A stretch of 64,000 nt of DNA from Corallium rubrum (taxonomy: Eukaryota; Cnidaria; Anthozoa; Scleralcyonacea; Coralliidae), in contig OZ035998.1 in assembly GCA_964035015.1 (NCBI GenBank), positions 35,167,628-35,231,627 on the forward strand, given 5' to 3'. Under the pieces are notes generated by a model that was not told the origin of the DNA, did not search any database, and saw only the letters and a program-made list of their open reading frames with translations. A program made the translations under genes and the position numbers. Shown piece by piece: positions 11,511 to 61,870 of the stretch (position 1 is the first letter of the stretch; each line of letters opens with the position of its first letter).

Positions 11511-11915
11511 ACAATACAATACAATATACAACTAAAAATTATAAACTAAGAACTTATATTTAAAAATATTCTCTTTTGTTATCATTTACTGCTGCTTCCT
11601 TCAAAGAACTTATGTTATATGCACCTTTTCTAAGTTTTAGTTTAAAATTATCTTTGTTAATTTGGTTCCATGCTATGGGACGTCTATACCGTAATGAAGG
11701 TCTTCCTTTCTCAGTTTTACACCTAACAACGTCAAAATTTAGGTTTCTTCTTCCCGTTCTTTCATTCCACCTTCTGAAAAGTTCTAGTAAATCTTGTGGA
11801 GCCTTCATGTACCAAACGTCGTGCATTAAGGTTAATTCATTTGTGTTTAAAAAAGGGGCATGTATTGACAAAGAAGCCATGCACAAATTACCTACCTTAT
11901 CTTTTTGGTGGTATG
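11511..11915 (-). pseudogene. 5'-truncated LINE, C-terminal ORF2 fragment
   Basis: The minus-strand frame 11886-11560 encodes 108 residues with the LRYRRPIAWNQI signature found at the extreme C-terminus of non-LTR retrotransposon ORF2 proteins (compare RYRGPVIWNSL). A 3' tail runs to a (TTGTA)n run at about 11511-11526. An in-frame stop limits the frame near 11915 and no reverse transcriptase domain is present, so it is a dead truncated copy. Confidence 0.62.
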
Positions 11916-12386
11916 CTTATAATTTTAACGTTTGTGTGGGACTCTTGGGCTAGTCCAAATATTTCAGTGTTTTCCCGTTCTGTTTTTGTGACTACCGCTG
12001 ACCTGTCAGCGGGAGCCATTATGTCGGCGTGTTGCTTGCTTGCTTGATTGTCTTGGACCGCACATACGTCATACTCGACAACTATCGCCAGATATTCGGC
12101 ACGATGCCATATAGTCGAGAAGATCGCTATTGATCGCCAGGTATTCGAGAAATACTCGAGTTGTTTTCGTTGTTTGCATTTTGGTTGTTGATTTTTGAAA
12201 AGTGTTAATTATTACTTTGCAAATATTTTCTTCTTGGAACGGTTTCTGTCATTTTCTTGCACGTCAGCAATGTTGTTTCCTTTTGTGTTTCCTTTCGATT
12301 TCATTTACTTTCCGGGGGGCTGCTTGACCGTTGGCACAAATTCAAATCGAATATCACTGTAAAATGCATGAAATATATACCAAGAC

Positions 12387-13636: not shown

Positions 13637-14166
13637 AAATTTCACATTAAATTTCATATATGAAACTGGAATTTCATATATGAAATGAAGATTTTCATAT
13701 ATGAAATGAAAAATTTCATATATGAAATTAGATTTTTACATGTGAAAAGGTAATTTCATATATGAAATTTCAGTTCCATATGTGAAATTCTCTTTTTCAC
13801 ATATTAAATTTCCATATATGAAAAACAGTTCATATATGAAATTTTAATTTCATATATGAAAAAGTAATTTCATATATGAAATCCATTTCACATTTCACAA
13901 TTTGGTAATTTCATATATGAATTTTCATATATGAAAATCAAGTCATATATGAAATTTTCATTTCACATATGAAATTATTCATTTCACATAATTTATGAAA
14001 AAGTAATCATTATATGAAATCAGAATTTTCATATATGAAAATCAGATCATATATGAAATTTACTTTTCACATATGAAATTATACATTTCAAATATGAAAA
14101 GTAATTTCATATATGAAATCCATTTCACATTTAGAACTGGCCAATTTCATATACGAAATTTTCACA
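13637..14166. repeat. array of TTTCATATATGAAA palindromes, upstream of BEN gene
   Basis: About ten perfect copies of the 14-bp palindrome TTTCATATATGAAA and at least as many one-base variants lie head to tail at irregular spacing of about 15-30 bases. A second array of the same motif is at 20090-20470, so the two bracket the BEN-domain gene. Confidence 0.9.
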
Positions 14167-20089: not shown

Positions 20090-20470
20090 GAATTTCATAT
20101 ATATTATATTATATGAATATTTAATATGTGAAAATTTCACATATGAAATACAGTACATGTGAAAATTTCATATACGAATTATTTCACGTATGAAAACTTC
20201 ATACATGAAATTTTTCACTGACATATTTCAAGGTTGAAACATTTTCATATATGAAATTATTTCATATATGAAATTATTTCATATATGAAACTGTTTCAAT
20301 TCCACATAACGATTTCATATATGAAACATTTCATATATGAAATCATTTCATATATGAAATAATTTCATATATGAAATCATTTCATATATGAAATCATTTC
20401 ATATATGAAATTATTTCATATATGAAACTGTTCCAATTCCACATAACGATTTCATATATGAAAAATTTCA
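20090..20470. repeat. array of TTTCATATATGAAA palindromes, downstream of BEN gene
   Basis: At least eleven perfect copies, mostly spaced by 1-3 bases (ATTTCATATATGAAAT units back to back), preceded by degenerate copies from about 20090. It starts about 260 bases after the BEN stop codon. Confidence 0.92.
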
Positions 20471-20555
20471 TACTCAAAACACGCAAACGTCACATAGATA
20501 CTCATACTCAAAATGCGTACACTCAGTAGATTGAATACACTGTTTACAGTTTTCA

Positions 20556-27009: not shown

Positions 27010-27430
27010 ATCTACAGGCTATAGTAAGCATAATGCAGATGATCAGATTAGGAGAAAATAAGTGGGGTTTTTATTGTAAGTTGAAAGGTTTTGGATTTGA
27101 TTTTCAAATGTAAATTTTGCCGCAGCGAGCGAGGCTGAAGCCATCGAACAACACAGTATACCTATTGCCTAATTTGGCTAGCAAGCCACAAATGACAAAT
27201 GTGCCAAGCTCAACTCCGATGCTCTATTGTCAATTTTCTCCGCTGTTTTTTTCATATTTTTGACTGAAACCTTGCATGCCTGTTGCTTTTTCATGGCAAT
27301 CTGATTGTACTGGTTTGTTTTTAGTTCTATTATACTTATAGTTTTCGAGCTATTAATTTTAATACGTTGGTTTTTCTGTCATTGTGAAACAGACAAGGAA
27401 GCCGTTTAAACGCTTGCAAAATCTAAATTA

Positions 27431-27740
27431 AGCCCTAATCAAACGAGAACGCAAGTCATCGCAAGTTAGCTTAAAATGACTTGTCGTCGCAAGTTCTGCA
27501 CTTCCGCTAGTTCCCACGCCTTTTCGCTAGTTCTCATGGTAGTTTCTATGGCGACGGAGCGCGAAAGACTTGCATCGACTTGTGTTTTGTGTTCAAACGT
27601 TTCGCAAGCCCTCGCAAGTTGAAGAAAACGTGCGATGAAATTTGAAAAAGATCAAATTAGTCGCAAGCTAACGCAAGTCACCACAAGTCATTGCAATCGC
27701 TAAAACTTGCGATGACTTGCGTTCTCGTTTGATTAGGGCT
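27431..27740. mobile_element. 310-bp PIF/Harbinger-type MITE
   Basis: 37-bp perfect inverted termini (AGCCCTAATCAAACGAGAAC..., 27431-27467 and 27704-27740) are flanked by TTA on both sides. A 3-bp TWA duplication is typical of Harbinger. The interior is rich in CGCAAGT repeats. Confidence 0.8.
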
Positions 27741-27934
27741 TTAAGATCACTTTGGCAACGTCCATGTAAACAGAATATTATTTTACATTCATACAAAGCG
27801 TAAACTAAGTGTTTTTTTTGTTCAACTTTGTAATTCATGTAGTGGAAACTGAATTAGCCCGGCACTTGACAGTCGATGACAGGAGCTATTGTAAGAACTG
27901 CATGAGACAGGGTGGATGGGTTATAATATTTTAA

Positions 27935-28096
27935 TGAGGTTATGCAATAACCAAGGTTAACAGCTAGGTAACCGCGCGTGGTACAAGCTTGGAGGTCAGC
28001 GGCCATGGAAGACTGGTACTAGTTGAACGTCGTCATTGTCGCGTTAACGGGCTAGCAGTCAGACGCAGTGTTGGAGTCAGAGGAAAATATGATATT
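27935..28096 (+). repeat. split direct repeat A1 (162 bp)
   Basis: TGAGGTTATGCAATAACCAA ... GGAAAATATGATATT. Same length as A2 with about two differences by eye. Confidence 0.85.
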
Positions 28097-29320
28097 GCTA
28101 GACGCAAGCAAATAGAGCCAGTCCAGGTTTACAAATATAACATTGCAGATAGTGATATTAGAAAGAAATTTATGAATGGCAACTCCTCAGAACTAAGTGA
28201 TCCCTTAGCCATGAAACGACCAGTATCCATTGGTTAACGCGTATTTCAATCATAAGAATCCTGCGTGGGCCAAGTGGTAGCGCAAGCAGTGGCTCAAGCG
28301 ATTGGACCGCGGGGAAAGCAGACCATAACAGCCGACTCCGACTCTTGTCGCTTTTTGAAGCGATTGAAGCAGCATTCTCCCGGTTACCACATCAGGTAAA
28401 GCACTGACGCCAAGCCCAGGGAACAGCAATCAAGGTATGTTAAATATACTCCATCTTTCTTCGTGTGGCAAGTACTTCGGCTAATTTCGGGCAGAGGTAA
28501 GACCAAACCAGGGACTAACAAAGCGGATGTCGGAGATACCCTCACAGAAATAACGCGGGAAAGTGAGCTAGGCCTTAAAAGAATGTAAGACATTGCCCGA
28601 AGAAAAGTAGAAAAACGCCAGAGGCTGAGCACAAAGGTCACACACCAGGCGGTTACGTCCCATGGGCCAAATGCACTAACCGACACGAATTTTATCAAGT
28701 TGTTTGAGGAATAAGTGGGAATACCCAAGAAATGTCGTGTTTTTCGTTGCGATAAACGAAGATACTTTGCCTAAACTGCAAAGCAGCCACGACCTGCTAC
28801 GATCGGTTTGACAGTATATGCATGGCGCCATGGCGGCGACTTACACCTAAGCGAAATCGCAAAGAATTAACAGCAAAGAAACTCCGCATACGACACTGGG
28901 AACAGACCCAGGCCGAGAATAGGCGCTAGCGTGTGTATTATTCGGGAGGAATACGCGTTCCCGTTTTGGCTTGAGACACAAGAATCATAGCTTAGCTGTT
29001 AGAGCGGAACCATTTGTTAGTAATAAGATATGTTGTTGAGTTAACGTATCAAAAAGAAAAACAACCAAGAAAACTTGCATAAAGAAGTGTCAATTGACAA
29101 ACTCCAAGTGTTGTCACCACTCGGGGTTGTTTTACCTAAGTTAATCACGTAAAGATCCGTAAATAGTTTTCTTGTCGTCCGAAACGTACGAGGATTTAGA
29201 ACCTTTTAGAGATCTTAAGGTTTTAATCACCGGTCTTAAGGTCGATTACAAATCCGATTTACGAATCCGAGTACCAACTATATAGCATAGCGACTTCTTA
29301 CCAGGGGGCAAGGAAAAGAA
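28097..29320. other. interior of copy 1, left part, no recognised gene
   Basis: No known domain was recognised. A 114-codon minus frame (28728-28384) is partly conserved in the inverted copy at 63680-63858, but the two diverge by frameshift, so coding is doubtful. Its presence in both copies shows this is element sequence and not host DNA. Confidence 0.5.
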
Positions 29321-29489
29321 AAACGCTTAGCTCCTGAGATAGGCGGTAACTGTGTCAAGGGGATTAACCTTGGGACTCCTGGCGTGCTTATGACTAATGG
29401 ACAAGTCCTGGTGCAATACAAGTATGAGTGCTTTGCTTAGTGCAATGCAGTATGAGAGCTTTTGCTTAGTGCAATGCCAGTATGAGTGC

Positions 29490-30004
29490 TGTTTCTCAAG
29501 TGCAATGCTTACAATGCTCAACCCTAGCCTGGGTGCCAGTCCCAGTAGGAGCGCTCTTGCTCAAACGCAACGCTTACAATGCTCAACTCTAGCCTGGGTG
29601 CCAGTCCCAGCATAGTGCAGTTGCTCAAAGTGCGGTGCCTACACTGCTCGATTCCTGCCTGGGTGCCAGTCCCAGTAGGAGTGCTCTTGCTCAAGCGCAA
29701 TGCTTACAATGCTCGACTCTAACCTGGGTGTCAGTCCCAGTAGGAGTGATTTGCGCAAGTGCAATGCTTACAATGCTCAACTCTATTAAACCTGGGTGTC
29801 AGTCCCAGTAGGAGTGATTTGCGCAAGTGCAATGCCTACAATGCTCAACTTTAGCCTGGGTGCCAGTCCCAGTAGGAGTGCTCTTGCTCAAGCGCAATGC
29901 TTGCAATGCTTGACTCTAGCCTGGGTGCCAGTCCCAGTAGGAGTAGTGCCTGTGCTCAATTCAATGCCTACAATGCTCAACTCTAGCCTGGGTACCAGTC
30001 CCAA
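29490..30004 (+). repeat. minisatellite B, left block (65-bp unit, about 8 copies)
   Basis: The unit is GCAATGC-TTACAATGCTCAACTCTAG-CCTGGGTGCCAGTCCCAGTA-GGAGTGCTCTTGCTCAA. Copies vary in length from 63 to 71 bases. Confidence 0.9.
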
Positions 30005-31395
30005 TATGAGTGCTTTTGCTTAGCGCAATGCCAGTATGAGTGTTTTTGCTGAGTGCAATGCCAGTATGAGAGCTTCCCTTGGTGCAATGCCAGTATGAGT
30101 GCTTTTGCTGAGTGCAATGCCAGTATGAGTGTTTTTGCTGAGTGCAATGCCAGTATGAGAGCTTTGCTTGGTGCAATGCCAGTATGAGTGTTTTTGCTGA
30201 GTGCAATGCCAGTATGAGTGTTTTTGCTTAGTGCAATGCCAGTATGAGTGCTATTGCTGAGTGCAATGCCAGTATGAGGGCTTTTGCTTAGGGCAATGCC
30301 AGTATGAGTGCTTTTGCTGAGTGCAATGCCAGTATGAGGGCTTTTGCTTAGGGCAATGCCAGTATGAGTGCTTTTGCTCAGTGCAATGCCAGTATGAGTG
30401 TTTTTGCTCAGTGCAATGCCAGTATGAGGGCTTTTGCTGAGTGCAATGCCAGTATGAGGGCTTTTGCTGAGTGAAATGCCAGTATGAGGGCTTTTGCTCA
30501 GTGCAATGCCAATATGAGTGTTTTTGCTTAGTGCAATGCCAGTATGAGTGTTTTTGCTGAGTGCAATGCCAGTATGAGTGTTTTTGCTTAGTGCAATGCC
30601 AGTATGAGTGCTTTTGCTGAGTGCAATGCCAGTATGAGGGCTTTTGCTTAGGGCAATGCCAGTATGAGTGCTTTTGCTGAGTGCAATGCCAGTATGAGGG
30701 CTTTTGCTTAGGGCAATGCCAGTATGAGTGCTTTTGCTGAGTGCAATGCCAGTATGAGTGCTTTTGCTCAGTGCAATGCCAGTATGAGTGTTTTTGCTGA
30801 GTGCAATGCCAGTATGAGGGCTTTTGCTGAGTGCAATGCCAGTATGAGGGCTTTTGCTGAGTGCAATGCCAGTATGAGGGCTTTTGCTCAGCGCAATGCC
30901 AATATGAGTGTTTTTGCTTAGTGCAATGCCAGTATGAGTGTTTTTGCTTAGTGCAATGCCAGTATGAGAGCTTTGCTTAGTGCAATGCCGGTATGAGAGC
31001 CTTCGCTTAGTGCAATGCCAATATGAGTGCTTTGCTGAGTGCAATGCCAGTATGAGTGCTTTTGCTGAGTGCAATGCCAGTATGAGTGTTTTTGCTCAGT
31101 GCAATGCCAGTATGAGAGCTTTTCCTTAGTGCAATGCCAGTATGAGTGTTTTGCTGAGTGCAATGCCAGTATGAGTGCTTTTGCTGAGTGCAATGCCAGT
31201 ATGAGTGTTTTTGCTCAGTGCAATGCCAGTATGAGAGCTTTTCCTTAGTGCAATGCCAGTATGAGTGTTTTGCTCAGTGCAATGCCAGTATGAGAGCTTT
31301 TGCATAGTGCAATGCCAGTATGAGTGTTTTTGCTGAGTGCAATGCCAGTATGAGAGCTTTGCTTAGTGCAATGCCAGTATGAATGCTTGCAGTAT
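30005..31395 (+). repeat. minisatellite A (30-bp unit, about 46 copies)
   Basis: The unit is GTGCAATGCCAGTATGAGTG-CTTTTGCTGA with few variants; three more copies lie at 29405-29490. Because 30 is a multiple of three, the minus strand stays open for 363 codons encoding a THTGIALSKS decapeptide repeat. I regard that frame as a by-product. It is flanked on both sides by minisatellite B. Confidence 0.95.
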
Positions 31396-31404
31396 GAGTG
31401 CTTT

Positions 31405-31870
31405 TTCTCAAGTGCAATGCTTACAATGCTCAACTCTAGCCTGGGTGCCAGTCCCAGCATAGTGCGGTTGCTCAAGTGCAATGCTTACAATGCTCAACTC
31501 CAGCCTGGGTACCAGTCCCAGTACGAGTAATTTTGGTCAAACGCAAAGCTTACAATGCTCGACTCTAGCCGGGGTGCCAGTCCCAGTACGAGTGATTTGC
31601 TCAAGTGCAATGCCTACAATGCTCAACTCTAGCCTGAGTACCAGTCCCAGTATGAGTGCCTTTGCTGAAGGGCGATGCTTACAGCGCTCGACTCTAGCCT
31701 GGGTGCCAGTCCCACCAAGAGTTCCTTGCTCAAACGCAACGCTTATAATGCTCAACTCTAGCCTGGGTGCCAGTCCGAGTGCCAGTCCGAGTGATTTGCT
31801 CAGGTGCAATGCCTACAACGCTCAACTATAGCCTGGGTGCCACTCCCAGTAAGAGTGCCTTTGCTCAAGT
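31405..31870 (+). repeat. minisatellite B, right block (about 7 copies)
   Basis: Same 65-bp unit as 29490-30004, in the same orientation, giving a B-A-B order. Confidence 0.88.
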
Positions 31871-32270
31871 GCGACACTTAACTCGTCGATAATACTAGTC
31901 GCGATTAAGTCGTCTAAGACCGACCAGTTCCTTCAAGGTCACGCTTTTCGAATTGATAGATCTTACTCGCACGTATGTGCTACATATGTGTTACACGATT
32001 AGGTTTTAAAGGCAATTACTCAGGGCATAGTTTCCGCATATCCCGGATCACCTACGTAAGACACTAGGGCGTTAGTTAAGCGACGCTTATCAATTATATA
32101 TTCGAACGCCTCCGAGTATATTGGAGGGCGTGGCAAACCGTTTGACACAAAGATCTACCATCAACGAGTACTGAGTAATTCACAAGGTTAACAATAAACA
32201 CATTGGCACAAATAAACAATGAACACATCGGCACGAAGCTTAAGGTTGTAAATTATATTGGGTTTAAAAC
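31871..32270. other. unique segment between minisatellites B and C
   Basis: About 400 bp without a gene. It is conserved in reverse complement at about 61040-61560, where one block (GACTGCAGCAGCTGTCGTCG and neighbours, about 33 bp) is present that copy 1 lacks. It ends in an A-rich run (32271-32310). Confidence 0.6.
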
Positions 32271-32313
32271 AAAAAAAAAAAAAAAAAATTAAAAAAAAAT
32301 AAAAAATATATGT

Positions 32314-32711
32314 ATGAGTGTTGCTAAATGGCGTACTACGGTGCTGCTCCCTACTCGCTATGAGTGTTGCTAAAAATGGCGTACTACGGTGCTGCCCACT
32401 ACTCGCTATGAGTGTTGCTAAAATGGCGTACTACGGTGCTGCTCCCTACTCGCTATGAGTGTTGCTAAATGGCGTACTACGGTGCTGCCCACTACTCGCT
32501 ATGAGTGTTGCTAAAAATGGCGTACTACGGTGCTGCCCAAGTACTACTCGCTATGAGTGTTGCTAAAATGGCGTACTACGGTGCTGCCCACTACTCGCTA
32601 TGAGTGTTGCTAAAAATGGCGTACTACGGTGCTGCCCACTACTCGCTATGAGTGTTGCTAAAAACGGCGTACTACGGTGCTGCCCACTGCTCTATACGAG
32701 TGTTGCTAAGT
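32314..32711 (+). repeat. minisatellite C, short array (46-48 bp unit, about 8 copies)
   Basis: The unit is ATGAGTGTTGCTAAATGGCG-TACTACGGTGCTGCCCACTA-CTCGCT. The same unit in the opposite orientation makes the 4-kb array at 57001-61024. Confidence 0.93.
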
Positions 32712-32811
32712 GAGTATTGTGTCTACTTGGATGAGTCTGACTGATGTGGGTCCAGATACGGTACTTGGAAGGGTGACATCCTGGCTCTGTTGGTTCCAGT
32801 ATATCACTTAT

Positions 32812-32940
32812 GGTGGTCAGCTCAAGATCCTGCATGGATGGATCTTAACCTGGATCCAAGTACCGCTATTCGCCCCAGGCCCCCACCGGGCTACGGCTTG
32901 CTCCAAACGGGTAAGTAAAAAGGTGAACGAAGATGTTAAA
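32812..32940 (+). repeat. split direct repeat B1 (129 bp)
   Basis: GGTGGTCAGCTCAAGATCCT ... AACGAAGATGTTAAA. It differs from B2 at one base (CTACGGC versus CTACAGC). Confidence 0.87.
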
Positions 32941-33102
32941 TGAGGTTATGCAATAACCAAGGTTAACAGCTAGGTAACCGCGCGTGGTACAAGCTTGGGG
33001 GTCAGCGGCCATGGAAGACTGGTACTAGTTGAACGTCGTCATTGCCGCGTTAACGGGCTAGCAGTCAGACGCAGTGTTGGAGTCAGAGGAAAATATGATA
33101 TT
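32941..33102 (+). repeat. split direct repeat A2 (162 bp)
   Basis: It begins immediately after B1 with no spacer. 87 bp (33103-33189) separate it from B2. Confidence 0.87.
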
Positions 33103-33189
33103 CCCACCGTCCCTCCCTTCAATCAAAGAGGTAAGTGTAATACTTCCACCAATTATTGGTGTGATCGGTGCAAGCCATGCCGAGTGGGG

Positions 33190-33318
33190 GGTGGTCAGCT
33201 CAAGATCCTGCATGGATGGATCTTAACCTGGATCCAAGTACCGCTATTCGCCCCAGGCCCCCACCGGGCTACAGCTTGCTCCAAACGGGTAAGTAAAAAG
33301 GTGAACGAAGATGTTAAA
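33190..33318 (+). repeat. split direct repeat B2 (129 bp)
   Basis: Right-hand copy of B. Sequence beyond it (GAAAAACTAATCGGG) is not shared with B1's context and marks the element border. Confidence 0.85.
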
Positions 33319-33504
33319 GAAAAACTAATCGGGTGCTTATTTGAAGAAAATTATGTAAAAGCGGGCGAGGGGTTGTTGCGTTTATGTAAGCTTATTTCTA
33401 GTAATAACTGATATACACGATTTTCTAATATGTTAAAATGTTGTGCAAACAATTAAATCATGTATGTGCATATCTGACACAAATCTAAATATCTCAAGTA
33501 CTGT

Positions 33505-34115
33505 AGGGCCTGTTTATATGGAGGCGAGTTCCTCCGCAGAGGTTCTTTCGGAAATCGGATACTTCGGGGATCGTCGGAGATGCGTCTAAATCGTCAGCTG
33601 GACATGGGGAGTGCGGGCGGATAGTGAAAAGAACCTCTGCCAGATTTCTGTGTCAATATGGCGGCATCAGTGGGGTGCAATAACTTTTGGAACTGCGGCT
33701 TGTAGAAAACATGTCGAATATAGCAGAAGGTTACACGACCACAGTTAATTGAATGTGTGGACAAACTAGGAAAGTTCGTTGTTTCAGTGTGAGCTACACG
33801 TCGGCCGATATAAATCCTCTGGTTCGTCAGTCTTCGTCTGATATATTAAACGGCAAAACTGAGTATATTTTGTCTTTTTACAAAAAAGACATATTATAAA
33901 CATGTCATAACCATTTACCAACAAATATGTTGCTAATATAGACGTGTATGGCTTAGTTATCCGTGAATTAGCAAGTCATGTAAGAAACCGACAGAAATCT
34001 GGCAGAGGCTAAATGTTATTTTCCGTTGGACTAGTTTCGCCCGCAGTACTTATGTCCAGCTGACGCCTCCGAACATCTCCGGCGACCCCCGAAACCTTAG
34101 TCTCCCTCGCAGCCG
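33505..34115. mobile_element. inverted-repeat MITE-like region
   Basis: CTTCGGGGATCGTCGGAGAT and GTCAGCTGGACAT on the left mirror ATGTCCAGCTGACGCCTCCG and ATCTCCGGCGACCCCCGAA on the right. An inner pair CCTCTGCCAGATTTCTG / CAGAAATCTGGCAGAGG sits at 33640 and 33990. The end appears to continue beyond the MULE-like insertion at 34126. Confidence 0.5.
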
Positions 34116-44559: not shown

Positions 44560-45303
44560 ATTCGCGTCGACGCGCTTGAAGATGCTCTTCGTGCTCTTCA
44601 TGCTCTTCGTGCTCTTTGTACAGACTTGCGTTTCGGCGCGCGCCTAGGTTACGATGGTCCTCGCATGCCTAAATTTTCTAAAAACCTCAAGTCCGCCACT
44701 GACAATCCAACTATTGTTTCCAGTAACTTACCTAAGGAAGTTGCTCTTGGACACACAGCCGGTCCTTTCACCAATCCTCCATTTGCTAACTTACAAGTTT
44801 CGCCAATCGGTATTGTACCCAAAAAGCATTCCGATAAATTTCGAACCATTTATTTTTTCACCTTTCGTTTCCAAAAACGGGCGAATCAATTAATTCATTT
44901 ATTGAGAAAGACGATTTTTCACTGCAGTACATCAAAATCGATGACGCCATTGCGGCTTTGATCCGATTAGGCAAAGACACTTATCTTGCTAAGACTGACA
45001 TAGAGTCTGCTTTTCGTCAATTCCCTGTTCATCCTGACGACTGGGAATTATTAGGTTTGCGAAGTGCGCCATATATTTTTAACCAACTTTCTGACGCGCT
45101 TGAGTTGATTTTAATGAACAAATGTTTTATAAGTTATGTTGGGCATATCTTAGACCATTTCCTGATAATGGAACCACCAGATAGGACCGAGCCACCTTCT
45201 CATGCATGTCAAACAAGTCTTTCTAGTATGTTGTTAACACTTAATACGTTAGGCGTTCCTATTGCAGATCACAAAACGGAGGGCCCTAGCCAAGTCATCG
45301 AAT
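44560..45303 (+). pseudogene. DIRS-like reverse transcriptase fragment
   Basis: The first frame carries NLPKEVALGHTAGPF, NPPFANLQVSPIGIVPKK and a KFRTIY-type motif. After a shift near 44880 a second frame carries KTDIESAFRQFPVHPDDWEL, then YIFNQLSDALE. The catalytic YxDD box reads HILDHF, so the second Asp is lost. A stretch between palm motifs is deleted. This polymerase is inactive. Confidence 0.78.
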
Positions 45304-45305
45304 AG

Positions 45306-47319: not shown

Positions 47320-50300
47320 TCACTCACTGATGGGCGTTGGTAGATGTTCTACTGATTTGGAATCCAGAGTGTTTGTGCTTGAACTAAGTAACTGATCAAT
47401 GTGTCTCCGCCAGATGACATTCGGTGCAATTTCGACTCTGTATGATACTGGTCCTGTCCGGGCTTTGACGATTCCTCGTATCCACTTCTCCTTCCCACTG
47501 TAATTTCTTGCGTTCACTTCTTGACCAACGTATAGTTCACGTAGTTTGCCAGCTGTGCCGTGTGATTTTGCTTTCGCTTGATTCTCTTGCTTCCCAACAA
47601 CATGCTTTCGAATGTCAGGTTTTATCAAGTCCAAGCGCGAGCGTAAATTTCGTCCCATGAAGACTGTCGCAGGAGTTTCACCAGTTGTGCTATGTGGAGT
47701 GTTTCTGTACTTCATCAAGAATTTGGACAGTTTGGTCTGAGTCGTTCCTGAATCTTCTTTCATAGATGTCAGTGATTTCTTCAATGTTTGGACAAATCTT
47801 TCTGCCAAACCATTGGTTGCAGGATGGTATGGAGCAGATGTGGTGTGTCTCACTCCATTTTTCTTTAGAAACAGTTGAAATTCTTCGGCAGTGAACTGAG
47901 GACCATTGTCACTTACCAACTGTTCAGGTAATCCATTCCTTGCAAATACTGTGCGAAGTGCTTCAATAGTTTTGGTTGCTGTTGTCGAGTGCATCATAAT
48001 CACTTCAGGCCATTTGGAACAAGCATCCACCACCACTAAGAACATCTTTCCGAGGAAAGGGCCAGCATAGTCGACATGAATACGTTGCCACGGTGTAGAT
48101 GGCCACTCCCACGGATGAAGTGGAGAACACTTTGGAGCCTGTTGAACATGCTGACAACCACGACATCCTTTGGCTAGGTCTTCAATATCTTGATCGATTC
48201 CGGCCCACCAAATGTAGCTTCTGGCAAGAGCTTTCACCTTGACTACACCAATATGACCTTCGTGTAATACCTCCAGGACTCGGCTTCTCAGTTTGGCCGG
48301 CACAATAACTCTGCTCCCCCACATGATACAACCTTGATGGACAGTTAGTTCATTTCTTCTAGAGTAATAGGGTGTCAAGGTAAGCTCTTGTTGTTTGTTC
48401 CATCCCTTCATAGTGGATTCATAAACTTTTACTAGTGCGGGGTCTCTTTGAGTTTCCATTCTTACTTTCTGGCTGGTGACAGGCAGACGGTTCAACTGTG
48501 ATGCATAAAATGCATGCACCGGGTCTGCAGCTTGTTCTGGCTCTTCGGTTAGTTCCATTGGCAATCGGGATAATCCATCCGCGTTGCAATGTTTTGATGA
48601 ACTGCGATATTCAATATCATAGTCAAATCCCGAGAGATACAATGCATATCTTTGAAGCCGGGCTGCCGTTGTTGCTGGTATGGCCTTTGTAGGACTAAAT
48701 ATAGCTGTTAGCGGTTTATGGTCAGTTCGTAAAGTAAATCTTCTCGCAAATACATAGGTATGGAATTTCTTTACCCCCCAAACCAAGGCCAACGCTTCTT
48801 TGTCTATCTGTGAATAGTGTTTTTCTGTTTTTGTAAGAGACCTTGAAGCATATGCAATAGGCCTTTCTGTGTTATCTTCCATGACTTGGGTTAAGACCGC
48901 TCCTAACCCATATGGTGAGGCATCACATTCAAGTTTGATAGGTCGTTGAGGGTCATAGTGCGCAAGGACTTCATCTGATGTGATTAATTTCTTGGCTTGA
49001 ACAAATGCCTTTTCACACTCTGGGGTCCACTTCCATGAACTGCCTTTTTCTAACAGTTTGTTTAAAGGCTGAAGTAGGGTGGATAAGTTTGGAAGGAAAT
49101 GTTGGTAGTAGTTGATAAGACCAATGAAAGAGCGGACTTGTGAAACATTCTCAGGGCGTGGGGCATTTACAACAGCGTCTACTTTCTTCTGTGACTTGTG
49201 CAGGCCATCTTTACTGATCTCGTGACCACAGAATTCAATCTTCTCTTTGAAGAATTCACACTTGCTGCTGTTAGCTCTCAGTCCATGCTTGTGTAGTCGG
49301 CTGAGAACTTCTTCCAGATTGTTGAGATGATCTTCGTCAGTCTTACCAGAAATGATCATATCATCAAGAATACACTGGACGTGTGGAATTCCTTCCAATA
49401 CCTGATCCATTGCTTGTTGCCAAATCGCTGGGGCTGATGCCACACCAAATTCAAGTCTGTTGTACTGGAATAATCCCTTGTGAGTGTTGATGGTCAGTAA
49501 CTTCTTTGACTCTTCTTCCATTTCCATTTGCAAATAAGCTTGGCGCAGGTCGAGCTTGCTGAACTTTTGTCCACCCCCGAGGGAAGCAAAAATATCATCG
49601 ATTCTTGGGAGAGGATATTGTTGGACTTGCATAACTGGATTGATAGTTTGTTTAAAATCCCCACATAATCGGACATTGCCATTCTTCTTTATTACTGGAA
49701 CTACTGGTGTTGCCCATTCACTCCATGTAACTTTGGTTAAGATGTTGGCATTTTGCAACTTCGTAAGCTCAGCTTCCACTTTAGGACGAAGGGCATATGG
49801 CACTTGTCTTGCTTTACAAAACTTGGGAGGGCTGTTTTCTTTCAAGGTGAGCTTGGCCTTTATATTCTTTAACATACCAATCTCTTCATCGAAAACTTCA
49901 GAATATTTATCCAAGATCTCTTGGAGTCTGGTCGGTTGGTCTTGAGAACTTGAGGTGGTTGATAGGGCTTTGATAGCTTTCCAGTCTAGTGTAAGCTTCT
50001 GTAACCAGTCACGGCCAAGGAGGGCAGGCCCCTGGGTGTTTACCACATACAAATTTAGCTGATGTATCTCTTCTTTAGACTTCACTTGGACCTTCATCAT
50101 CCCTTCAGGTTTTATCTTCTCTCCAGTGTACGTCTTTAGAGTAGTAGATGTTGGATGAAGCTTGGCAGTTTTGTACATAGGGCTGTATTTGCTGTATGGA
50201 ATCACAGATACAGCTGAGCCAGTGTCAAGTTCCATTTGAAGAGGTTTTCCATCCACTTCTGGTGTAACCCAGATGATGTTACTGCTGGCTTTTTCAACCT

Positions 50301-51114
50301 TGTGTAGCTCTAGAGATGCCAAGGTGTCATCACTATCACTCTCGCTTTCATGTTGAACATTATGAAGATCTTTTACTCTTTTCTGAGTTGTGTTTGTCTT
50401 GACTGCAGAAGTTGAGCCAGTTGCCTTGGAGCGACATACTCGTTTAATATGCCCTTTCTTACCACAGTTCCTGCAGTATTGGTCTTTAAAATAGCATTCT
50501 TGAGCTTCATGCCCATCTTTCCCACAGCGATAACATTTACGTTGTTTCTGGCCTTGACTGAGTTTGTTTAGTTCCGTTTCCACCTTAGGTTTTCCTCTCA
50601 GTTCTACAGCATCTCTAGCGGCGGTTTCCATGGCGACCGCCATCTTCACGGCCTTGTCGAATTTCAGATTAGTTTCAACAAGCAAGCGTTTCTGAATGGA
50701 TTCGTTATATAATCCACAAACCAGTCGATCTCTTAACGTGTCGGCCAAGACTGTATCAAATTCACAATGCTCGGATAGTTTCTTAAGTTCAGCGACGTAA
50801 GAATTTATGTTTTCGTCTTCGCGTTGATCTCTTTTATGGAATCGAAATCTTTCTGCGATTACCAGTGGTTTGGGAGACAAATGGCCTTTAAGAATCTCTA
50901 CTATATCATCAAATGTTTTCGTTGATGGTTTCGCTGGAGATGTCAATGTACGTAATAAACTATAAGTCTTACCTCCAATTACAGTCAGGAGAACTGGTAC
51001 TTTCTTATCATTTTCGACATTGTTCGCCAGGAAGTACTGCTCTACTCTTTCCACATATGCAGACCAATCTTCTCGGGTTTCGTCGAATGCCTCTAATTTC
51101 CCGATCGAGTTCAT
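47320..51114 (-). CDS. Ty3/gypsy Gag-Pol polyprotein, 1,264 residues, intact
   Basis: One frame encodes, in order, a Gag capsid-like region (1-190), two CCHC zinc knuckles (CYRCGKDGHEAQEC, 194-207; CRNCGKKGHIKRVC, 214-227), aspartic protease (DTGS, 297-300), reverse transcriptase (LDLRQAY, 521-527; ILDD, 582-585), RNase H (LECDAS, Asp731; DKEAL, Glu773; RTDHK, Asp798), and integrase. The integrase has an HHCC-type finger (HEGH at 951-954 to CRGC at 984-987) and a DD35E core (Asp1015, Asp1069, Glu1105). No stop or frameshift separates gag and pol. It copies its RNA in cytoplasmic particles and inserts the DNA into the nucleus. The start chosen is the first ATG, about 190 nt after the 5' LTR. 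Confidence 0.97.
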   Translation of the reverse strand: MNSIGKLEAFDETREDWSAYVERVEQYFLANNVENDKKVPVLLTVIGGKTYSLLRTLTSPAKPSTKTFDDIVEILKGHLSPKPLVIAERFRFHKRDQREDENINSYVAELKKLSEHCEFDTVLADTLRDRLVCGLYNESIQKRLLVETNLKFDKAVKMAVAMETAARDAVELRGKPKVETELNKLSQGQKQRKCYRCGKDGHEAQECYFKDQYCRNCGKKGHIKRVCRSKATGSTSAVKTNTTQKRVKDLHNVQHESESDSDDTLASLELHKVEKASSNIIWVTPEVDGKPLQMELDTGSAVSVIPYSKYSPMYKTAKLHPTSTTLKTYTGEKIKPEGMMKVQVKSKEEIHQLNLYVVNTQGPALLGRDWLQKLTLDWKAIKALSTTSSSQDQPTRLQEILDKYSEVFDEEIGMLKNIKAKLTLKENSPPKFCKARQVPYALRPKVEAELTKLQNANILTKVTWSEWATPVVPVIKKNGNVRLCGDFKQTINPVMQVQQYPLPRIDDIFASLGGGQKFSKLDLRQAYLQMEMEEESKKLLTINTHKGLFQYNRLEFGVASAPAIWQQAMDQVLEGIPHVQCILDDMIISGKTDEDHLNNLEEVLSRLHKHGLRANSSKCEFFKEKIEFCGHEISKDGLHKSQKKVDAVVNAPRPENVSQVRSFIGLINYYQHFLPNLSTLLQPLNKLLEKGSSWKWTPECEKAFVQAKKLITSDEVLAHYDPQRPIKLECDASPYGLGAVLTQVMEDNTERPIAYASRSLTKTEKHYSQIDKEALALVWGVKKFHTYVFARRFTLRTDHKPLTAIFSPTKAIPATTAARLQRYALYLSGFDYDIEYRSSSKHCNADGLSRLPMELTEEPEQAADPVHAFYASQLNRLPVTSQKVRMETQRDPALVKVYESTMKGWNKQQELTLTPYYSRRNELTVHQGCIMWGSRVIVPAKLRSRVLEVLHEGHIGVVKVKALARSYIWWAGIDQDIEDLAKGCRGCQHVQQAPKCSPLHPWEWPSTPWQRIHVDYAGPFLGKMFLVVVDACSKWPEVIMMHSTTATKTIEALRTVFARNGLPEQLVSDNGPQFTAEEFQLFLKKNGVRHTTSAPYHPATNGLAERFVQTLKKSLTSMKEDSGTTQTKLSKFLMKYRNTPHSTTGETPATVFMGRNLRSRLDLIKPDIRKHVVGKQENQAKAKSHGTAGKLRELYVGQEVNARNYSGKEKWIRGIVKARTGPVSYRVEIAPNVIWRRHIDQLLSSSTNTLDSKSVEHLPTPISE

Positions 51115-51282
51115 TACGATCGATATTACTTCAGACTTTAATCGTCGTTTCTGTGTCGGTTACCAGTGTTTATATCACCTTCGTTGTTTACTCGTTGAAT
51201 ACTTTTAGTTCAATGTTTCGATACTCACTACAGAGCCTTTGTTCGCTCTCAGGGTACGTTGTCGCTTTCTTGTATCGCTCAC

Positions 51283-51447: not shown

Positions 51448-52037
51448 GACCTTCCTATAGCCAAATTTCAACGTCTGAACTAATATTTTACGAGGCATAA
51501 AACGAGTTAAAGGTGTTTCTACAAGGATGCGTTTACCTATAACATTAGACCACCTCAAACTTTTTCACCGTTTGTTGCATTCACGCAAAGTACCAACGCA
51601 CGATGAAACAATGTTTTGGGCTGCTATTTCTTTAGCATTTTTTGGTTTTCTGCGGATTGGTGAAATGACTTGCTCCGGTCCTTTTAATTCCTCTACTCAT
51701 CTTAGCCGATCAGACGTAAGCTTTCACAGTGACCAACACCACAAGGCTGGTTTTTTGAAACTCAACATTAAAGCTTCTAAGACCGAGTATCTATTGTCCA
51801 TGAGTGCGGGCTCTTCAAACCCACTTTTCTCATACGTCATCAAACCATGCGGGACCATTGTTTTGCTACTCGAACGGTGTTCCTCTATCACGTAGTCGAT
51901 TTACTAAGGAACTGCGAACACTATCTCATTGGCTCATTCAAACACTAGGAAGATGGTCATCTGACTGCTATCTCAGATATATTCGTACACCAGTGAATGT
52001 TCTTGCAGACGTTTCAAAAGGATTGATAGGGAAATAA
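51448..52037 (+). pseudogene. DIRS-like tyrosine recombinase, C-terminal piece
   Basis: ISLAFFGFLRIGEMTC contains the first catalytic Arg box. After a frame change near 51870, SRSRFTKELRTL joins directly to HWLIQTLGRWSSDCYLRYI, which holds the catalytic Tyr. The HSFRIGAAT-type box (His-x-x-Arg) that normally lies between them is missing, so a deletion has removed catalytic residues. The frame ends at 52037. Confidence 0.78.
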
Positions 52038-54144: not shown

Positions 54145-54801
54145 AGGGGCGCAACTAGAAAATTTCGAGGGCAGGGGTTGAATGCAAAGAGGGAAAGTCG
54201 TTCAGTATTCTAAACAATTTGGGATACTAGATATCCTCGTTATGCTTCTTCGAGAACACTCAACAACCACAACAACAATCAGTGCCGTAGCATGGCAATT
54301 AGTGACCGCACTTGTAGGGGGATCTGGAGGTTCTCCCCCGGAAATTTTTAAAATCCAAAACCTCGGAAACACCATTTGCAGCAATTTGAGTGAACTTTTT
54401 CATCTAATTCTGTAGCGAGTATAGTTGAAACTTTACTGTAAAAACGAAGAAATTATCACACCAACATACCCTACAGGTTGCCAAAATCCAGCTCTAGTCT
54501 ATGATTGGTTCCGTTTTCGCCATGAGATTCGAAAGCTGAGCCCACAAATTCAGAAAAGCGGTTGTTTTTAGGAAAAACTTGGTGTAGCATATTACAAACT
54601 GGGTACGAGATTGAAGCCGAACTAAAAGCCTCAGCTGAGTCTAGTCGCCAGATTTGCGGAGAATTGTATTGCGTACTATAACAGACGATTAATTATTTGT
54701 TTATCTAATGTCTAATCTAATATTAGAGGTCTCACAAAAAGGGCAGGAGTTAAAAAGGGCAGGGGTTGCAACCCCCCCAACAACGGAGTTACACCCCCTG
54801 T
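54145..54801. mobile_element. degenerate hAT MITE
   Basis: CAGGGGCGCAACTAG at the left and GAGTTACACCCCCTG at the right are inverted hAT-type ends. The GGGGGATCTGGAGG..CCCCCGGAAATTTTT interior block matches other copies. Flanking 8-mers agree only partly, so it is old or truncated. Confidence 0.55.
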
Positions 54802-55307
54802 TCGTAATTGATTTGATCTGTACATGAACTCAACACCTATCAAAATTATATAAAAAGTAAACAAGACGTTCACTCGGGCTACTGCAAAATCGCAGCGAGT
54901 AGGTGGAGGTGTTTTGGATAAAAGGTATTGCAATTGTTATGAAAGCTGCAATCTGGCTATCTATTATCTATTAAAGTCTAAACACATTGGTCACAGACAA
55001 AAGTCAAAACACAATCGAATTCTCCGATAGAAAACGCAATTCGCAATTCGCAAAACACAAAACACAAAACACGATTGCCTGTTTAATATTTAATTTCCAT
55101 ACAGCGTTGACGGTTCACACGTCGAGTCTCCTTGGGGTACTAAATATCAACACAGCATGTTTACCTGTCAAGCCGTCGCTTGCAAGTTCACTTCATCAAC
55201 GTCCTTTGTGATTCCATTCACAGCATTTGAGTAATCCAATGACATTTCATATAGCATTGTATTCAAGTTTCTATTCGTGTTTAGTTTTGTAAGTTCGGGA
55301 GCCATAC

Positions 55308-55416
55308 TTAACATCTTCGTTCACCTTTTTACTTACCCGTTTGGAAAGTTGGTGCAAGCCGTAGCCCGGTGGGGACCTGGGACGAGTAGCGGTCTTGGAT
55401 CCAGGTTAAGATTAAC
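55308..55416 (-). repeat. partial split direct repeat B in copy 2
   Basis: Reverse complement of the last 110 or so bases of B1/B2 (CTTGGATCCAGGTTAAGAT ... TTAACATCTTCGTTCACC), about 90% similar. The GTCAGCTCAAGATCC start is missing. Confidence 0.75.
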
Positions 55417-55436
55417 CTGAATGTCAGGCCTTTATT

Positions 55437-55513
55437 TGTTCTCGCCTTCCGCTAAACCCGGCAGCGCGGGCAGAGTTGCGGGTGAGCGAGAAGGCGAGAA
55501 AAATAAAGGCCTG
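55437..55513. repeat. hairpin (AGGCCTTTATTTGTTCTCGCCTTC)
   Basis: AGGCCTTTATTTGTTCTCGC and GCGAGAAAAATAAAGGCCT are inverted around a GC-rich centre, possibly a small MITE. Confidence 0.6.
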
Positions 55514-55839
55514 AGGAAACTCTTAATAAAACTGTGGGTTCTCCGTCCATCTCATGGACGGGAGCTCTGATTGGCTGACTAATTGAAGTAAGGATTTTGA
55601 TTGGTTCATTCAGATAAACAACTTGCCCATTGGTGCACCGTCAAAGCACAGTCAAGGACAAGGTGCACACCGTGACAAGGTACGTTTCTGTGACCAATTC
55701 ATTCATTTAATCATTTATTATGTCGGATTTCGACTGAATGAGTGCACTTTCTCGTGTCGGATGTGTTTTGTGTGTTCACAGACATAGTTATTGGGCAGTA
55801 ATGTCGCTGGCAAGTATCTTGATATTATTATATACGCTG

Positions 55840-56115
55840 AAGGGCACAACCAGGATTTTTGAAAGGGGGGTGGTTTTTAGATAAAGTTACGACACAAATC
55901 TAGGGGAGTCCGGGGGCATAGCCCCGCGGGAAATTTTTGAACTTTGTAATCCGTAAAATGGCATTTTCTGCATTGAGGACACTTTTGACCCACGTATAAA
56001 GATTTTAAATCACATGATTTAGGCGTCAGAGAGAGTAGAAGTAATTTTTGACCTCGAAAATTTCCCTCGCATCGGCACCCCCGACCCCCCTCTCGTTGCG
56101 CGCCTGTATACGCTT
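55840..56115. mobile_element. hAT-type MITE fragment
   Basis: GGGGGTGG.., GGGGAGTCCGGGGGCATAGC, CCCGCGGGAAATTTTTGAAC and CATTTTCTGCATTGAGGACA are the interior blocks seen in other copies. The right part GACCCCCCTCTCGTTGCGCG resembles a hAT end. No TSD was resolved. Confidence 0.5.
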
Positions 56116-56559
56116 ACAATCGCTGTTCATTAAGTGAAGTTAAGGAGCTGTGTAATAAGATGAAGAGACTTGACATATTGAACGCTGTACATGTGTGGAA
56201 ATAATACTTTCTTTCTTTGCTTTCCTGATGTCTGATTACCCGTCTCGGATGTGTTCACAGACTTAGTTATTGGTCAGTAATGTCGCTGGCAAGTATCTTG
56301 ATATTATATAACTTACACTTGTAATAATAGTTGTGTTGAGATCTGAAGAGACTCGACATATGAACGCTGTTACATGTGTGGAAATACCTTAATAAATACA
56401 GACAATCGTGTTTCGTTATTGCAAATTGTTTTTTCTATCGGAGAATTGGATTGTGTTTTGACTTTTGTCTGTGACCAATGTGTTTAATAGACTTTAGATC
56501 TTAGCACTGCATATAGCACTGTGATTTTGCAGTAGCCCGAGTGAACGCCTGACCAGGCG

Positions 56560-57000
56560 TTTTGTTATATCGGAAATCAGACCATAGAAGGATTTTTCGA
56601 AACTGCTTTGTTAAAAAATTCATTGACGCATTTCGGCTGTGAGTCTTTGAAACCAGAACAAACGACGTACATTCGAAAGCTCGCTGTTGACAGCCAAGAT
56701 GTCTTTGCTGTTTTGCCCACTGGTTTTGGTAAAAGTCTGATATATCACTGGATATTGCCATTTGTGTTCTGTGAACTTCATCGACTTCAACATGGCACGG
56801 TGAGGAATTTCGTTGTGGCAGGTGGAGACCTTGCGAAAAGCAGTCTACTCATGGTCCTTCCTTCGATGATCAGTGACGATGGCTACTGAAGGCGAAGCCG
56901 ATGCGAAAGTCCAAGTTGTTTACGGCAGTGCTGAACAATGGTTGTCAGAAAAGTGGTCCCGTAAGTTACGAAACGGGAATCTCGGAGCAGTTAGTCTTAG
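56560..57000 (+). pseudogene. RecQ-family helicase-like N-terminal fragment
   Basis: The frame 56608-56886 reads LTHFGCESLKPEQTTYIRKL then DVFAVLPTGFGKSLIYHWIL: a RecQ-type motif 0 region and Walker A (PTGFGKS). A second frame (56884-56996) reads VVYGSAEQWLSEKWSRKL, which resembles a later segment of the same helicase group found in cnidarian genomes. The DEAH box and C-terminal helicase motifs are absent, and the frame runs into minisatellite C. It may be a captured fragment or a pseudogene cut by the satellite. Confidence 0.62.
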
Positions 57001-60000
57001 TGGGCAGCACCGTCGTACGCCATTTAGCAAACTCACAGCGGGTAGTGGGCAGCACCGCAGTACGCCATTTAGCAACACTCATAGCGAGTAGTGGGCAGCA
57101 CCGTAGTACGCCATTTAGCAACACTCAAAGTGAGTAGTGGGAAGCACCGTAGTACGCCATTTAGCAACACTCATAGCGAGTAGTGGGCAGCACCGTAGTA
57201 CGCCATTTAGCAACACTCATAGCGAGTAGTGGGCAGCACCGTAGTACGCCATTTAGCAACACTCATAGCGAGTAGTGGGCAGCACCGTAGTACGCCATTT
57301 AGCAACACTCATAGCGAGTAGTCGGCAGCACCGTAGTACGCCATTTAGCAACACTCATAGCGAGTAGTGGGCAGCACCGTAGTACGCCATTTAGCAACAC
57401 TCACAGCGAGTAGTGGGCAGCACCGTAGTACGCCATTTGGCAACACTCATAGCGAGTAGTGGGCAGCACCGTAGTACGCCATTTGGCAACACTCATAGCG
57501 AGTAGTGGGCAGCACCGTAGTACGCCATTTGGCAACACTCGTAGCGAGTAGTGGGCAGCACCGTAGTACGCCATTTAGCAACACTCATAGCGAGTAGTGG
57601 GCAGCACCGTAGTACGCCATTTAGCAACACTCATAGCGAGTAGTGGGCAGCACCGTAGTACGCCGTTTAGCAACACTCATAGCGAGTAGTGAGCAGCCCC
57701 GTAGTACGCCATTTGGCAACACTCATAGCGAGTAGTGGGCAGCACCGTAGTACGCCATTTGGCAACACTCGTAGCGAGTAGTGGGCAGCACCGTAGTACG
57801 CCATTTGGCAACACTCGTAGCGAGTAGTGGGTAGCACCGTAGTACGCCATTTGGCAACACTCATAGCGAGTAGTGGGCAGCACCGTAGTAAGCCATTTAG
57901 CAACACTCATAGTGAGTAGTGGGCAGCACCGTAGTACGCCATTTAGCAACACTCATAGCGAGTAGTGGACCGCACCGTAGTACGCCATTTAGCAACACTC
58001 ATAGCGAGTATTGGGCAGCACCATAGTACGCTATTTAGCAACACTCATAGTGAGTAGTGGGCAGCACCGTAGTACGCCATTTAGCAACACTCATAGCGAG
58101 TAGTGGGCAGCACCGTAGTACGCCATTTAGCAACACTCATAGCGAGTAGTGGGCAGCACCGTAGTACGCCATTTAGCAACACTCATAGCGGGTAGTGGGC
58201 AGCACCGTAGTACGCCATTTGGCAACACTCATAGCGAGTAGTGGGCAGCACCGTAGTACGCCATTTGGCAACACTCATAGCGAGTAGTGGGTAGCACCGT
58301 AGTACGCCATTTGGCAACACTCATAGCGAGTAGTGGGCAGCACCGTAGTAAGCCATTTAGCAACACTCATAGTGAGTAGTGGGCAGCACCGTAGTACGCC
58401 ATTTAGCAACACTCATAGCGAGTAGTGGGCAGCACCGTAGTACGCCATTTAGCAACACTCATAGCGAGTAGTGGACAGCACCGTAGTACGCCATTTAGCA
58501 ACACTCATAGCGAGTATTGGGCAGCACCGTAGTACGCTATTTAGCAACACTCATAGTGAGTAGTGGGCAGCACCGTAGTACGCCATTTAGCAACACTCAT
58601 AGCGAGTAGTGGGCAGCACCGTAGTACGCTATTTAGCAACACTCATAGCGAGTAGTGGGCAGCACCGTAGTACGCCATTTGGCAACACTCATAGCGAGTA
58701 GTGGACACCACCGTAGTACGCCATTTGGCAACACTCATAGCGAGTAGTGGGCAGCACCGTAGTACGCCATTTGGCAACACTCGTAGCGAGTAGTGGGCAG
58801 CACCGTAGTACGCCATTTAGCAACACTCATAGCGAGTAGTGGGCAGCACCGTAGTACGCCGTTTAGCAACACTCATAGCGAGTAGTGGGCAGCACCGTAG
58901 TACGCCATTTGGCAACACTCATAGCGAGTAGTGGGCAGCACCGTAGTACGCCATTTGGCAACACTCGTAGCGAGTAGTGGGCAGCACCGTAGTACGCCAT
59001 TTGGCAACACTCGTAGCGAGTAGTGGGTAGCACCGTAGTACGCCATTTGGCAACACTCATAGCGAGTAGTGGGCAGCACCGTAGTAAGCCATTTAGCAAC
59101 ACTCATAGTGAGTAGTAGGCAGCACCGTAGTACGCCATTTAGCAACACTCATAGCGAGTAGTGGGCAGCACTGTAGTACGCCATTTAGCAACACTCATAG
59201 CGAGTAGTGGGCAGCACCGTAGTACGCCATTTAGCAACACTCATAGCGGGTAGTGGGCAGCACCGTAGTACGCCATTTGGCAACACTCATAGCGAGTAGT
59301 GGGCAGCACCGTAGTACGCCATTTGGCAACACTCATAGCGAGTAGTGGGTAGCACCGTAGTACGCCATTTGGCAACACTCATAGCGAGTAGTGGGCAGCA
59401 CCGTAGTACGCCATTTAGCAACACTCATAGCGAGTAGTGGACAGCACCGTAGTACGCCATTTAGCAACACTCATAGCGAGTATTGGGCAGCACCATAGTA
59501 CGCTATTTAGCAACACTCATAGTGAGTAGTGGGCAGCACCGTAGTACGCCATTTAGCAACACTCATAGCGAGTAGTGGGCAGCACCGTAGTACGCCATTT
59601 AGCAACACTCATAGCGAGTAGTGCGCAGCACCGTAGTACGCCATTTAGCAACACTCATAGCGAGTAGTGGACAGCACCGTAGTACGCCATTTGGCAACAC
59701 TCATAGCGAGTATTGGGCAGCACCATAGTACGCTATTTAGCAACACTCATAGTGAGTAGTGGGCAGCACCGTAGTACGCCATTTAGCAACACTCATAGCG
59801 AGTAGTGGGCAGCACCGTAGTACGCCATTTAGCAACACTCATAGCGAGTAGTGGGCAGCACCGTAGTACGCCATTTAGCAACACTCATAGCGGGTAGTGG
59901 GCAGCACCGTAGTACGCCATTTGGCAACACTCATAGCGAGTAGTGGGCAGCACCGTAGTACGCCATTTGGCAACACTCATAGCGAGTAGTGGGTAGCACC

Positions 60001-61560: not shown

Positions 61561-61569
61561 GCATCGCAC

Positions 61570-61870
61570 TTGAGCACTCCCACTCCCACCCAGGCTAGAG
61601 TCGAGCATTGTAGGCATTAAACTTGAGCAAATCACTCCTACTGGGACTGGCACCCAGGTTGGAGTCGAGCATTATAAGCGTTGCGCTTAAGCACGAGCAC
61701 GAACTGGCACCCAGGCTAGAGTTGAGCAGGCATTGAACTTGAGCAAATCACTCCTACTGGGACTGACACCCAGGTTAGAGTCGAGCATTATAAGCGTTGC
61801 GCTTGAGCAACAGCACTCCTACTGGGACTGGCACCCAGGCAAGAGTCGAGCACTGTAAACATTGTACTTG
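61570..61870 (-). repeat. minisatellite B in copy 2 (about 4-5 copies)
   Basis: ACTGGCACCCAGG..AGAGTCGAGCA units, the reverse complement of the 65-bp unit in copy 1. Only the block on the C side is present; the second B block of copy 1 is absent here. Confidence 0.85.

Follow-up and report, generated by a model that had tools for sequence, protein, structure and literature searches.

Among retrotransposons that use a tyrosine recombinase, several families carry split direct repeats, and the parts of the literature drawn on here describe them as follows. Ngaro elements, which belong to the DIRS order, have the plan A1-[open reading frames]-B1A2B2 and are accompanied by isolated AB repeats (PMC8547959), the members of each repeat pair being identical (PMC9210276); VIPER of trypanosomatids carries A1...B1, A2 and B2, and in its short form SIRE a stretch of about 30 bp peculiar to SIRE lies between A2 and B2 (PMC6681497). 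Split direct repeats are common to PAT, Ngaro and Viper, and an echinoderm-form Pat1 has been reported in Nematostella (PMC4157794). For DIRS1, the published account involves an internal copy of the joined ends, a circle junction and duplication-free recombination with a short identical genomic sequence (PMC3266345). Transposons that carry and seed satellites include DINE/Helitron elements with central tandem repeats, Pearl, and Ogre-linked minisatellites (PMC9659126). Here we analyse a 5384-bp element in a stretch of 64,000 nucleotides of Corallium rubrum (assembly GCA_964035015.1, contig OZ035998.1, positions 35,167,628 to 35,231,627; hereafter the window). We put at roughly 0.86 the probability that it belongs to a family of retrotransposons, dispersed and without genes, that has the Ngaro/PAT/VIPER architecture of the split-direct-repeat tyrosine-recombinase type, and its best reading is a non-autonomous, satellite-bearing relative of that type which would be moved in trans.

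The element shares with Ngaro the A1-[interior]-B1A2B2 plan, and its solo A-87 bp-B insertions parallel the isolated AB repeats; it differs in the minisatellite cargo, in the 87-bp single-copy spacer between A2 and B2, and in that no open reading frames with a recognizable gene were found. SIRE has the same plan as the solo insertions here, whereas full copies differ from VIPER in a long, largely satellite interior, in the lack of VIPER-like genes among those found, and in their animal host. The likeness to PAT and to Pat1-like elements lies in the split direct repeats, and since the element has no MT, reverse transcriptase, tyrosine recombinase or Gag, PAT and Ngaro are indistinguishable for it. 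DIRS1-like elements resemble it in the internal joined-end copy and the duplication-free insertion, but their terminal repeats are inverted and these are direct. Known satellite-bearing transposons likewise carry and seed tandem repeats, but are Helitrons, elements like miniature inverted-repeat transposable elements (MITEs), or long terminal repeat (LTR) elements.

Two reviews on transposon-derived tandem repeats (PMC9659126, PMC6947457) mention neither DIRS nor Ngaro nor tyrosine recombinases in the main text, and no satellite-bearing element of this class appeared in titles and abstract openings of the open-access papers that literature searches listed, a scope that leaves out subscription journals and Repbase. 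The initial annotation of the window had spoken of a new kind of repeat vehicle, which is too strong: other classes are known to include transposons with satellites, and a short form with split direct repeats is already on record in SIRE.

Architecture and dispersal of the family

A repeat search of the window returned two direct-repeat pairs, A (27930-28096 and 32936-33102, 167 nt, 98.2%) and B (32812-32940 and 33190-33318, 129 nt, 99.2%). Reading the borders of other genomic copies fixed those of the window copy, so that the whole element spans 27934-33317. Its layout is A1-interior-B1A2-87 bp-B2, with 4.7 kb from A1 to B1 and with B1 and A2 abutting exactly, as had been proposed from the window alone. 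The left flank reads ...ATATTTTA/ATGAGG and the right border GATGTTAA/AGAAAAAC (a slash marks a border or joint). Between A1 and B1 lie, in order, U1, the 30-bp and 64-65-bp minisatellites, U2, an A-rich tract, the 48-bp minisatellite and U3. The parts, all on the plus strand, are:

27934-28096 (+): A1, left terminal repeat, element start ATGAGG; the border is common to the copies read, and left flanks are unrelated between distinct insertions
28097-29410 (+): U1, interior block, no gene found; 28 genome matches to its start
29411-31872 (+): minisatellites a (30 bp) and b (64-65 bp) in the order a-b-a-b, present in complete copies
31873-32265 (+): U2, unique interior block, delimited by comparison of copies
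32266-32306 (+): A-rich tract ahead of the C array; a similar tract in several other copies
32313-32709 (+): minisatellite C, 48-bp unit, 8.3 copies; array length strongly variable between copies
32713-32811 (+): U3, unique block ahead of B1, delimited by comparison of copies
32812-32939 (+): B1, inner copy of the right repeat, end GATGTTAA
32940-33102 (+): A2, inner copy of the left repeat, abutting B1, so that at B1/A2 the right end runs straight into the left end
33103-33189 (+): spacer of 87 bp, present once in the full element, retained in solo A-spacer-B insertions
33190-33317 (+): B2, right terminal repeat, end GATGTTAA; right end TTAA in 21/21 borders

We searched the host assembly (474 Mb, 312 contigs) with A, for which 40 matches were scored among 382 candidates, and with A2-spacer-B2 of a young copy, for which scoring 40 of the 436 candidates yielded 62 matches. 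Around the A matches 34 stretches were read at varied lengths (20 + 14, some being neighbouring pieces of one locus), together with 8 short loci from the A query and 30 from the A2-spacer-B2 query. The complete order A1-U1-a/b-U2-C-U3-B1A2-spacer-B2 was found at nine other loci (L009, L010, L011, L012, L013, L014, L015+16, L017+18 and L021-23), which represent eight distinct insertions, since L013 and L014 share flanks. Other copies thus keep A1...B1A2..B2 in order with different flanks, and their clean borders read flank/ATGAGG...GATGTTAA/flank. Later inserts interrupt L012, L015 and L021-23, L012 having B1 split and B2 incomplete, and L024, L025 and L026 are partial copies.

The start of U1 has 28 genome matches, with all candidates scored; one element is represented twice, by its two halves, and some matches are fragments, which leaves at most 27 loci with U1. 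L009, L010 and L013 differ by only 0.1-0.3% in U1, which indicates that the family moved recently, and old copies also exist (L073, U1 78-80%; L075, U1 73-93% by piece). These two and L074, the divergent U1 loci, were considered as autonomous candidates and rejected: L073 and L075 are old copies of the same element, and L074 is a U1 fragment beside other tandem repeats. An exact-pattern search of A in viral contigs gave 0 matches, and an Rfam search no match. The locus is one member of a dispersed transposon family rather than a local duplication, and none of the loci read presented an ordinary tandem array, LTR or terminal inverted repeat borders, or a unique duplication.

Paired repeats, junction and empty sites

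Within nine copies A1 and A2 differ at 0, 0, 0, 1, 0, 0, 6, 0 and 2 positions (sum 9), against a mean sum of 52.4 when A1 is paired with A2 of other copies, and 0/20000 shuffles gave 9 or fewer. The differences between B1 and B2 are 0, 0, 0, 0, 3, 4, 0, 5 and 1 (sum 13, against 37.7 in shuffles, p 0.0046). L014 and copies lacking one member of a pair were left out, and much of the contrast lies between two subfamilies; in the young one, repeats of different copies are also near-identical. Paired repeats are closer within than between copies, as though replication had renewed both members of a pair at once.

Reduced forms accompany the complete ones. Among 40 right ends scored with the A2-spacer-B2 query, B abuts A2 in 16 and the others are solo or truncated. 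The 17 distinct solo-type clusters read comprise 16 insertions and one tandem pair of A-spacer-B units (L039/L071); an end is missing or broken in six of the single solos (L030/L069, L031, L038, L061, L066 and L070/L072). A third form, A1-interior-B with both borders, is seen in L073, where no A2-spacer-B2 follows in the next 486 bp read. Solo and A-interior-B forms are the products expected of A1 x A2 or B1 x B2 recombination.

The B1/A2 joint reads GATGTTAA/ATGAGG, that is, the right end followed by the left end with nothing added between them. This junction pattern has 137 genome matches at up to 3 mismatches, 35 of them exact, and its reversed control has 0; 100 of the 137 were listed, and among the less exact matches are left borders flanked by a TTAA-like sequence. 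At 24 left borders (L014, flanked as L013, and L037, flanked as L036, not being counted) positions -4 to -1 of the flank match TTAA at a mean of 3.08/4, against 1.20 over all window positions, and exact TTAA occurs at 8/24, against 0.7%; 0/20000 resamplings reached the observed match. The left core varies, with variants such as TTTTC, TATAA and TATTA, whereas TTAA stands at 21/21 right borders, and from this contrast it follows that the left core comes from the target and the right core from the element.

Empty sites, three in number, agree with this and indicate precise insertion. The target of L011 is one arm of a local inverted repeat whose other arm is uninterrupted and reads TTTTTC/CCAAAAA; because this site lacks TTAA, the TTAA at the terminus belongs to the element itself, and the insertion duplicated nothing. 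Solo L040 has uninterrupted paralogues in L071 and in the window (11863-11960), reading TTTTAA/CTTTT or nearly so; the target itself being TTAA here, a TTAA duplication would look the same as none, and the insertion is precise but ambiguous. The third is a sister-family solo inserted into U1 of L012 (1941-2277), where L011 is uninterrupted and reads, by eye, GTTAG/TAATAAG; four more distant L011 matches (L058, L059, L060, L065) are gapped at the junction and were left aside. Target-site duplication is excluded at two of the three, L011 and the sister-family solo.

Interior, partner enzyme and rival explanations

In the A1-U1 block of eight copies the longest stop-to-stop frame is 92-128 amino acids (aa). 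Pfam returned nothing over cut-off for the three element frames searched: the 128-aa frame of the window copy (28384-28770) has a sub-threshold match to PF14965 (E 0.05), and neither the 122-aa frame at 31463-31831 nor the 145-aa frame over A2-B2 and flank (32974-33411) has a match. Longer frames, up to 370 aa, sit in the satellite arrays, are repetitive and lay outside this search. Within that scope no reverse transcriptase or recombinase was found in the interior, in line with its first description.

What it does contain is satellites. The 30-bp unit forms 3.3 copies from 29411 and 46.5 copies at 30001-31388, and the 64-65-bp unit occupies 29477-30031 and 31390-31872. Part of the 65-bp unit is related to the 30-bp unit (0/500 shuffles as good), whereas the similarity of the 48-bp unit to the other two is not significant (23/500 and 85/500 shuffles as good). 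The minisatellites of the initial annotation are thus real, but its three families are closer to two, and the order it gave as B-A-B-C is a-b-a-b-C with a short first a block. In the young relatives L009, L010 and L013 the a/b region is near-constant (2012, 2014 and 2010 bp) and the C region measures 1790, 1484 and 1102 bp; across complete copies C ranges from 323 bp (L012) to 6355 bp (L017), the 5984 bp of L015 being due to an insert. Since a C array is also present in old L073, the cargo is old, and the length of C changes while the rest hardly does. An exact-pattern search of the C unit in prokaryote genomes gave 0 matches.

Tyrosine recombinases are abundant in the genome, with 149 PF00589 matches scored among 689 candidates, 8 of them with internal stops. 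Among those scored, no autonomous relative with the same ends and a reverse transcriptase or recombinase was found, and an RVT_1 search for such a partner, with 150 of 10,748 candidates scored, was uninformative. Twenty of the 35 exact junctions fall outside this family's listed matches (A, A2-spacer-B2 and U1-start queries), for example near C1:19039749, C1:4771130, C46:8065293 and C28:2839155. The one of these twenty that was read, L076 (C1:19039540-19039860, 321 bp), represents a second split-direct-repeat family and has a B-plus-A 69% identical to the element's, about 80% over the first 70 bp of A, with an identical junction; the approximately 70 bp before its B match no sequence compared, and the solo in L012 is related to it at 99%. 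Related families share one integration core, as would be expected if one recombinase family served them. A further group among the listed matches consists of 15 identical GATGTTAAGTGGGGTTATGCAATAACC junctions, having GATGTTAAGTGGGG; one of these, C12:7517473-7523008, is preceded at 5.5 kb by an A-like site, a length in keeping with an autonomous element.

The Ngaro/PAT/VIPER type is matched at every structural point tested: A1 at the left with B1A2..B2 at the right, likeness within pairs, no target-site duplication, and a target core resembling the circle junction. Dispersed copies, borders and empty sites hence bear out the geometry first proposed, and the class assignment is made by structure and not by enzyme, with a recombinase that would act in trans. 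In such a cycle, the RNA of one copy would be reverse-transcribed by the reverse transcriptase of another element, and B1A2 would serve as a template joining the cDNA ends into a circle with a B/A junction, a role that the published DIRS1 model assigns to the internal complementary regions. This junction, GATG-TTAA-ATGAGG, would then be recombined by a tyrosine recombinase with a genomic site that is short and resembles TTAA. With every insertion the minisatellites would be planted at a new place, the C array changes length quickly, and solos could arise by A1 x A2 recombination or by resolution of the circle.

The solo A-spacer-B copies resemble solo LTRs, and a decayed LTR derivative (TRIM/LARD-like), with A-spacer-B as the LTR and a left LTR deprived of spacer and B, could account for them. 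We consider it decidedly improbable: the A1-only left end and B1 abutting A2 recur in the complete copies read of young and older subfamilies (L009-L015, L021, the window copy, L017), target-site duplication is absent at the two telling empty sites, and the termini are ATGAGG...GTTAA and not TG...CA. In none of the copies read, which are part of all copies, does a full A-spacer-B stand at both ends with a 4-6 bp duplication. Homology between junction core and target, without duplication, fits tyrosine-recombinase integration in general, and so would also suit a DNA-only circular element moved by such an enzyme without reverse transcription, like a Crypton. Excision and reintegration would not, however, keep A1/A2 and B1/B2 concordant within copies, and Cryptons are not known to have split direct repeats, which makes this origin improbable too.

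A DDE transposon of the TTAA-target kind (piggyBac-like) is suggested by the TTAA-like left core, but is very unlikely, given that the left core varies while the right end is TTAA in all borders, that at L011 the target lacked TTAA and no duplication occurred, so that TTAA does not stand at both sides, and that inverted repeats of at least 30 nt are absent from 27500-33800, a search that did not extend to short terminal ones. Taken by themselves, paired direct repeats might also come from a unique local duplication or an ordinary tandem array, yet with the complete order at nine other loci, eight of them with unrelated flanks, and with empty sites in existence, that explanation is hardly credible.

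Some observations weigh against the split-direct-repeat retrotransposon, which we nonetheless prefer. The 87-bp unrepeated spacer between A2 and B2 is absent from the usual Ngaro drawing. Concordance is weaker for B1/B2 than for A1/A2, L017 showing 6 and 4 differences and L025 showing 5 in B, and in L054, outside the concordance test, B1 is 79% and B2 93% identical to the window B. The nearest scored PF00589 match lies 22.8 kb from element sites (61/69 on contigs with one; 149/689 candidates scored) and 77 kb from junction matches (89 of the 100 listed on such contigs; 540/689 candidates unscored). Finally, no transcript, cDNA or circle was seen.

Neighbouring sequence and significance

The other features of the window that bear on the family are:

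11863-11960 (+): paralogous uninterrupted target of solo copy L040, which is located elsewhere
55308-55412 (-): partial B, 88%, whose border is again GATGTTAA; it may be the right end of the second copy
56998-64000 (-): second, rearranged copy identified by sequence comparison, with a colinear interior, a C array of about 4 kb and a 0.5-kb inverted-repeat insert in U1

The A1 of this second copy lies just outside the window, at about 64450-64290. Its U1 insert of about 0.5 kb (62931-63441) is MITE-like, with 122-bp inverted arms (62931-63052 and 63320-63441) at 91%. The right side is rearranged, the C array running into a helicase-like stretch (54600-57000), around which repeats stand in inverted orientation; positions 56647-56799 match PF00270 DEAD below cut-off (E 0.001), and the stretch presumably resembles RecQ. 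As pieces of this neighbourhood also follow the broken B in L026, another mobile element may have struck B twice.

A dead DIRS-like element had been proposed 8 kb from the element. The proposal is plausible, its candidate pieces being a reverse-transcriptase fragment with an RVT_1 match below cut-off (44838-45305, E 1.6e-4) and a recombinase-like frame at 51479-51895 with PF00589 in 1/18 protein relatives, though the two may not be parts of one element, an open Gypsy-type polyprotein frame of 1279 aa (47320-51159, minus strand) lying between them. That frame has relatives at 100% and 90% from a source coded lgn, its best organism-named relative being from Paramuricea clavata (75%). Any kinship of this debris with the split-direct-repeat element would be conjectural. 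Directly left of the element lies an imperfect palindromic repeat (27414-27758, 63% over 357 aligned positions), and arrays of palindromic TTTCATATATGAAA-like motifs, apparently related by eye, occupy 13650-14161 and 20110-20506.

The same C satellite occurs in L073, about 20% diverged, and in copies about 0.1% apart, which suggests possible selection on the arrays, with packaging, priming or strand transfer as conceivable functions, and a possible resetting of their length during reverse transcription. It is conceivable, though we hold it doubtful, that the minisatellites are conserved working parts of a long-lived parasite of tyrosine-recombinase retrotransposons, a dedicated vehicle seeding one satellite library, which would share its integration core and recombinase with at least one sister family (L076).

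The family would add a gene-less, satellite-carrying form to the tyrosine-recombinase retrotransposons; a single assembly supplies young copies as well as empty sites and solos, and the proposed circle-junction mode of integration becomes testable from sequence. It also offers a route by which minisatellites may spread through an animal genome, and a good case for studying it.

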